Shown piece after piece: positions 1 through 32,609 of a stretch of DNA of 33,531 bases. Every line of letters begins with the position of its first letter. Within the stretch, counting starts at the first letter, position 1. This DNA comes from an uncultured Lachnospiraceae bacterium (GTDB lineage Bacteria > Bacillota > Clostridia > Lachnospirales > Lachnospiraceae): assembly GCA_902783965.1 (NCBI GenBank), contig CACZSY010000178.1:1-33531 (forward strand). Reading direction: 5' to 3'. The notes beneath the pieces were generated by a model that was not told where the DNA came from, did no database searches, and saw only the letters and a program-made list of their open reading frames with translations. Made by a program: the position numbers and the translations under genes.

Positions 1-9
1 CCTCACTTT

Positions 10-86
10 GTTTCGGTGTTTCTTTGAATTGATCGCGTCAAGCGTCACGCGAACCGGACTGCAAAGATTTCTTCGAAATCTTCGCA
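10..86 (-). repeat. Dispersed structured element, copy 1 of 2
   Basis: This stretch matches the reverse complement of 28795-28870 over most of its length, and the left end may continue outside the window. Two stems are visible. One is AAGATTTC (64-71), loop TTC, GAAATCTT (75-82). The other is TCGCGT (33-38) with ACGCGA (47-52). In the other copy the second stem reads TCGCGC/GCGCGA, so one base pair changed on both sides and pairing is kept. That is what a selected hairpin or structured RNA would show. Strand is given so that this copy and the plus-oriented copy agree. Confidence 0.7.
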
Positions 87-231
87 TAGGTCTCTTGGCG
101 CTATCTTTTCGCTTCGTAAAGATGTGTTAATTTTAACATTTCCAAAGGAGATATGTCAAGGAGTTGACAGCTTTCGTCAGGACAAGTCAAGACAAGGAAA
201 GCCGGAATCTAATCTGTCCGCCTGCACCCGG

Positions 232-26435: not shown

Positions 26436-26582
26436 TGTTCTATCGAGCCTGCTCGCCCGCGCCGGGGTGCGCCCGGCGTCAGCCGGGAATCTTCCCTGCG
26501 AACCCCGTGTTCTATCGAGCCTGCTCGCCTGCGCCGGGGTGCGCCCGGCGTCAGCCGGGAATCTTCCCTGCGCACCCCGTGT
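26436..26582. repeat. 72-nt tandem duplication with GC-rich hairpins
   Basis: Two copies (from 26436 and 26508) differ by only a few bases. Each contains CGCCGGG/CCCGGCG and ends ACCCCGTGT. It is far more GC-rich than the flanking AT-rich DNA. Similar CCCGGCG/CGCCGGGC elements lie at 19181-19222 and 24886-24901. Confidence 0.9.
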
Positions 26583-28462: not shown

Positions 28463-28794
28463 CCTATTGTTTGATCTATGTCATCAGACGTCATTTTCAC
28501 TCCCCGGCCGCTAAAATGACGCGGTCATCATACTCACGAGAACAGATAAGGGACTAAATATTTATCAAGAATGAAATGCCGGCTGTTATTATCTACCGTC
28601 CCGAAAGCATTGTTGATCCCTGATATAAATGATATACAATCCGCAAAAGCAATACGGCTCCTTTATATCCAAGGCTTCCGGTCGGAGTATGTAGCCTTTG
28701 ACATTTCCGACATCCGATGAGTTTTTTCTTCTGAAATGTGTCACTAAGCACCGATCCTATCTATTATTTTGAATTCAGAAATTTCTTCATATAT

Positions 28795-28885
28795 TGCGAA
28801 GATTTCGAAGAAATCTTTGCAGTCGGTTCGCGCGACGCATGGCGCGATAGAATCAAAGAAACATTGAGCGAAGCGAAATGTTTCT
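28795..28885 (+). repeat. Dispersed structured element, copy 2 of 2
   Basis: Three stems in a row: AAGATTTC-GAA-GAAATCTT (28799-28817), TCGCGC/GCGCGA (28828-28833, 28842-28847) and AGAAACATT/AATGTTTCT (28857-28865, 28877-28885). The first two match copy 1 (10-86, opposite orientation), with a compensated pair in the second. Confidence 0.75.
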
Positions 28886-29018
28886 ACTATTTCCGGTTTT
28901 TCGGGATTCAAAAACTCCCTTTACTTATTCCGGAAATGCTGTTGAAAAATTTTCTCGAACACCCTTGACGCCCTTGCCGTCTTCAACGGCGGGCGGCAGA
29001 CCCTTCCTGAGTAAAATT

Positions 29019-29041
29019 CAAGAACGCCATCGGCGTTCTTG
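29019..29041. repeat. Perfect 10-bp hairpin, loop ATC
   Basis: CAAGAACGCC, loop ATC, GGCGTTCTTG. It shows the same architecture (perfect stem, 3-nt loop) as 64-82 and 5611-5645. Confidence 0.85.
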
Positions 29042-29177
29042 CCGCGCCGCGCCCGGCGCTGATAAGCGCCTTCCACTGAGCGCGGCTGCGATCCGCTTTA
29101 AGATCAAAATACTTCGCAATAGGACCGGGCTTAATGCACTGTGATAATATATTATATTTCCCTATGGCAAAAATGTG

Positions 29178-32271: not shown

Positions 32272-32336
32272 TATGTTTCCACTCCGTTTTCGTTTTTCGT
32301 TAGTTTCTTTTAAGGGTTCAATATGATTTCCGTGTA

Positions 32337-32391
32337 ATTTCCCTATGATTTCCCTATGATTTCCCTATGATTTCCCTATGATTTCCCTATA
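32337..32391. repeat. 11-nt tandem direct repeats upstream of the response regulator
   Basis: Five units of TCATAGGGAAA on the minus strand (plus TTTCCCTATGA), 32337-32391. Diverged units continue in or near phase on both sides: TTACACGGAAA and TCATATTGAAC toward the gene, and CTATAGG-, TATATAGGAAA- and CCATAGCGGAAA-like units up to about 32432. Confidence 0.9.
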
Positions 32392-32450
32392 GCTTCTATG
32401 TGTTTCCTATATATTTCCGCTATGGTTTCCGTGGACAGCCTCGTGACAGT

Positions 32451-32609
32451 ACGTGTCAAACCCCATTTTCCCAGTTTCACACGCACTACTTCGCTGGATC
32501 TCTACGTGTCAAATCCCATTTCCCCAGTTTCACACGCACTACTTCGCCTGATCTCTACGTGTCAAATTACGTTTTCCCAATTTCACACGCATTCACGCAC
32601 CGCTTCACG
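32451..32609. repeat. Three-copy 53-nt tandem repeat
   Basis: Units start at ACGTGTCAAA in 32451, 32504 and 32557; the third diverges after CACACGCA. Each unit contains CGTGTCAAAC and GTTTCACACG, which can pair with one C-C mismatch. A single relative sits at 7566-7601. The rest of the 32272-32674 gap shows no gene. Confidence 0.92.

Follow-up and report, generated by a model that had tools for sequence, protein, structure and literature searches.

The analyzed window of 33,531 nucleotides is contig C178 of the draft genome of an uncultured Lachnospiraceae bacterium, which comprises 2.31 Mb in 292 contigs and is 91% complete with a contamination estimate of 0.7%. Two copies of a palindromic repeat were identified in this window. 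Copy 1 (C178a) is located at 1..90 on the forward strand, and copy 2 (C178b) at 28791..28888 on the reverse strand, where it forms a complete unit of three hairpins (116 bits, model positions 1-98). The inverted match of the two sites, which had been described in a sequence-only reading of this DNA, was recovered in the genome search between 17-86 (+) and 28795-28863 (-) with 90% identity (E 3.5e-20). It includes a 30-nt core (57-86 / 28795-28824) that is 100% complementary.

Hairpin 1 of copy 2 lies at 28858..28884 (-) and is built from GAAACATT and AATGTTTC, with a C-G to T-A change compared to other copies and the motif GTAG at its foot (28884-28887, -). Hairpin 2 was found at 33..52 (+) in copy 1, where TCGCGT (33-38) pairs with ACGCGA (47-52), and at 28828..28847 (-) in copy 2, where the stem reads TCGCGC / GCGCGA. 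The stem swap between the copies is therefore present as described, and the corresponding pair of the alignment (51-91) is CG in 13 copies and UA in 4. Hairpin 3 is located at 60..86 (+) in copy 1 (TGCAAAGATTTC-TTC-GAAATCTTCGCA) and at 28795..28821 (-) in copy 2; it contains one conserved A.C, which is G.U on the other strand. A third stem had been attributed to copy 2 only, but this is an effect of truncation. Copy 1 lost its 5′ end at the contig end and retains hairpin 1 without its 5′ arm. Contig C9 starts, on the other strand, with a sequence identical to the first 75 nt of copy 1, and it is this contig that holds the missing arm GTAGAAACACC. Based on this identity and the position of copy 1 at the contig end, three hairpins can be assigned to both window copies, and the ends of the two contigs (copies C178a and C9) probably represent one physical copy.

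The repeat unit has a length of approximately 98 nt, as in the complete copy 2, and thus exceeds the segment delimited before. Its three hairpins follow each other in the order hairpin 1, hairpin 2 and hairpin 3, starting with the (ATA)GTAG-footed hairpin 1 and a T-rich linker, followed by hairpin 2, a GAACCGACTG linker, hairpin 3 and CGCAATA. The consensus reads (ATA)GTAGAAACACTTCGCTTTGCTCAGTGTTTC for hairpin 1, TTTGATTTAA, TCGCGC-CAAACGTC-GCGCGA for hairpin 2, ACCGAC, the hairpin 3 sequence given above and ATAG, and the ends of the repeat are TAGTAGAAACAC and CTTCGCAATA.

A search of the whole genome for further copies, which the sequence-only reading had proposed, was performed with sequence and covariance-model searches and revealed about 20-25 copies, either whole or partial, at about 17-20 places. 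Model R1 gave 23 matches at E 0.1 or better and model R2 gave 30 at E 1 or better, several of the latter being weak or overlapping known copies on the other strand. Head-to-tail tandem copies were found on three contigs (C217, C192, C12), and four copies are partial or recombined (C39, C17, C261, C233). In C5, other hairpins stand in place of hairpin 3. Furthermore, an optional extra hairpin (about GTCACAACTGCTTCGCAGTTATGAC) is located within the hairpin-2 loop of C192i, C12i, C195, and C5. In a pattern search allowing up to three mismatches, the internal hairpin GTCRYAACTGCTTCGCAGTTRTGAC was detected at four places in the genome, all of them hairpin-2 loops, and nowhere else.

The 292-contig draft, in which several contigs end in the repeat, would fit an assembly or binning artefact with a repeat common to contaminating contigs. 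However, two diverged copies are present on the window contig itself, intact copies are found in the interior of contigs as long as 33 kb and the contamination estimate is only 0.7%, so that this explanation is extremely improbable.

The covariation test suggested in the sequence-only reading was carried out on an alignment of 17 copies with 25 stem pairs and 500 shuffles. Standard pairs occupy 96.9% of the pair cells, compared to a mean of 90.8% after shuffling of the 17 copies, and none of the 500 shuffles was as high. Two-sided changes were found at 10 of the 25 pairs (shuffled mean 3.5), and the covariation score of 0.149 (shuffled 0.061) was likewise reached by 0/500 shuffles. When the partners were slid by 1-3 columns, the paired cells fell to 32-50%, a comparison which somewhat favors the structure used, as it was drawn from one aligned copy. 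Relative to copy C192ii, the changed cells comprise 20 two-sided Watson-Crick changes against 7 mismatches and eight wobble-type cells (4 GU and 4 AC), so that unpaired stem changes, named before as the observation that would speak against conserved hairpins, are in the minority. These cells are not independent, since two changes are common to C153, C9, C178a, and C75 and two others to C92 and C195, whereas C40, an old diverged copy, by itself gives four two-sided changes. For hairpin 3 alone, which could be compared in 20 copies, 6 of 12 pairs show two-sided changes. The stem AAGATTTC/GAAATCTT, which had been regarded as unchanged, varies on both sides in other copies: it reads CGATTGC/GCAATCG in C92, C195, and C233, the same with one T.G in C261, and GAGAATG/CATTCTC in C40. 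Taken together, the doubly changed pairs and the scores not reached by any shuffle strongly support selection on the hairpins or their biased maintenance.

The strands of the element differ in their folding. At position 4 of hairpin 3, the model strand has A.C in 18 copies and A-T in two, while the opposite strand has G.U or A-U and is thus paired in 20/20 copies. Folding as RNA is stronger on the opposite strand (-37.8 vs. -28.5 kcal/mol), and the folding z of copy 2 is -3.1 on the element strand and -5.0 on the opposite strand. Outside this one hairpin-3 position, wobble is equal on both strands (4 GU vs. 4 AC cells). The strand-symmetric wobble is compatible with a constraint at the DNA level, whereas opposite-strand folding together with the G.U/A-U position could mean an RNA function from the opposite strand.

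A structured non-coding RNA or cis-acting leader element encoded on that strand and being multi-copy by chance would account for the strong pair covariation, the lower folding energy (z about -2.6 to -5.1) and the hairpin-3 position paired in every copy. The location of C136, C92, C5, C9, and C40 just upstream of a ribosome-binding site also agrees with it. The genomic context, for which open reading frames (ORFs) were called by a script rather than a gene finder, speaks against this. All copies with resolved flanks lie between genes, the remainder being unresolved or at contig ends, and relative to the ORFs 3 copies are arranged in sense, 6 in antisense, 2 between convergent and 3 between divergent ORFs. 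These mixed arrangements, convergent ends included, argue against a cis-acting leader or terminator of one orientation. The array in C12 runs into the tail of the upstream ORF. In the surroundings of copy 2, promoter-like sites (3 vs. 1.6 shuffled) and terminator-like sites (3 vs. 0.9 shuffled) were barely above the shuffles, and none of these terminator-like sites is built from hairpins of the element. In addition, the window and seven other loci gave no Rfam match above the gathering score, and the copies are partly tandem, partial or recombined.

Window positions 29016-29097, about 130 nt away from copy 2, belong to another palindromic repeat family. It has 15 matches in the same genome and 21 in G011, which belongs to another genus of the bacterial family, and one segment of the repeat was scored as a terminator-like hairpin.

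Outside its own genome, 60 relatives were searched and gave no DNA match and no convincing covariance-model match, the best one being a sub-threshold hit in G005 (E 0.03). Plasmid and phage records contained no match to the repeat, and viral contigs no exact match to its core. Four places with the core in contigs of GTDB genomes were rejected as chance matches, as the repeat is not found around them, and the same applies to single matches of a 13-mer core in four further genomes among 299 genomes of the family. An empty-site comparison with the only genome of the same genus, whose completeness is 58%, showed no synteny at the window locus. The repeat is apparently restricted to one lineage. 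The G005 locus (L050, G005:C58:5381-5517) carries a different hairpin-rich sequence of another genus with a AAGAATTTC-TTC-GAAATTCTT-like stem. It stays below the threshold of the model (E 0.03-0.06) and is possibly a similar type of repeat.

Owing to the mixed orientation, the tandem and truncated copies and the distribution in a single genome, the non-coding RNA is disfavored and considered improbable. The element is multi-copy, intergenic and hairpin-forming, like dispersed intergenic palindromic repeats in general. Since it lies between genes in all arrangements, in both orientations and in tandem, without an Rfam match or a promoter or terminator signal tied to it, a palindromic DNA repeat of REP/BOX/MITE-like type is most likely, rather than a regulatory RNA. 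Of the three possibilities raised in the sequence-only reading, the mobile palindromic unit fits best, the non-coding RNA is disfavored as stated, and the term REP-like holds only by analogy. Overall, a lineage-specific, non-autonomous and modular palindromic DNA repeat is the probable nature of the element.

Its dispersal suggests mobility. In C153, the 7 bases TGGTTTA are present on both sides of the copy. Such a target duplication was found in C153 only, and none of fixed length or position was detected over seven copies. Direct repeats in the flanks of these seven copies nevertheless exceed those of re-paired flanks (33 vs. 26.2 letters, p 0.007), with varying length and position. The terminal inverted similarity is weak, with 12/24 end positions at the best of seven offsets. 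The transposase search covered the Y1 family (PF01797) and found no transposase with matching ends; in the 91% complete draft it gave a single match, without copies of the repeat beside it. This gene (L048 1465-1878, G000:C79:4651-5064) lies near a contig end and encodes an IS200/IS605-type TnpA of 137 aa. As a REP-associated tyrosine transposase (RAYT) it was rejected by its size and its context.

A REP-type repeat moved by a RAYT, which would recognize the GTAG-footed hairpin, agrees with the GTAG that C153, C9, C192ii, C178b, and C5 have at the hairpin 1 foot. However, the motif is altered in C217i, C217ii, C75, C136, C192i, and C12ii, and only about half of the copies having a 5′ end retain it. 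The conserved irregular pair within hairpin 3 can be compared to the bulge that some REP hairpins require for cleavage (PMC8266576), but a unit of three hairpins and about 98 nt contrasts with the 20-40 nt of REPs (PMC3733652), and the only Y1 gene of the 91% complete genome is the IS200-type one. This explanation is considered highly unlikely. REPs share with the repeat the extragenic palindromes, the complementary stem changes, which are already known among REP subfamilies, and GTAG at one hairpin foot in part of the copies; they differ in that GTAG is not fixed here and no RAYT was found (PMC3733652). Because no RAYT was found and the unit is larger, the likeness to REPs is an analogy only. 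The survey of GTAG repeats lists Proteobacteria, Cyanobacteria, Chloroflexi, and PVC (PMC3733652), and many other families of stem-loop repeats have been described (PMC2267715).

By architecture, and as an analogy, the repeat resembles the BOX elements of Streptococcus pneumoniae, which are regarded as parasitic elements and are intergenic, dispersed, strongly folded and modular, with outer modules and optional inner ones (PMC3049150). For both, no mobilizer has been assigned. In contrast to BOX, the repeat has fewer copies and carries its optional module in the loop of the middle hairpin, once per unit. With miniature inverted-repeat elements (MITEs) like RUP and the Correia elements it shares a length of about 100 nt without an ORF, strong folding and a frequent TA at the borders, but it has weak terminal inverted repeats (12/24), no consistent target duplication and no assigned partner insertion sequence. 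It is thus neither a demonstrated member of the REP/RAYT system, as the hairpin foot, unit size and transposase differ, nor a proven MITE.

For the palindromic DNA repeat favored here, a protein acting in trans, a candidate transposase, would recognize and copy the element as folded single-stranded or cruciform DNA, and the hairpins would thereby be kept. Alternatively, arm-templated repair might maintain the complementarity of the arms. Another reading, which seems rather unlikely, is a new modular element of which only one strand is recognized, in the form of folded single-stranded DNA or RNA, and which is moved by a candidate enzyme; nested hairpins would be exchanged as modules and the fixed G.U wobble of hairpin 3 would mark the recognized strand.

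A copy of the DNA repeat located within a transcribed leader or tail would form RNA hairpins and may tune the adjacent genes. Such tuning has been proposed for REP, ERIC, and BOX repeats.

The repeat probably represents a new small, folded repeat family in which two-sided stem changes are unusually clear inside one genome. It is a good case for asking whether folding of the DNA or a function of the RNA keeps such repeats palindromic, and pair covariation among copies of the same genome is by itself no proof of a non-coding RNA.

Finally, four direct tandem repeats unrelated to this family were observed in the window, at 32450-32608 (unit of 53 nt), 26436-26579 (72 nt), 32317-32404 (11 nt), and 916-975 (30 nt).
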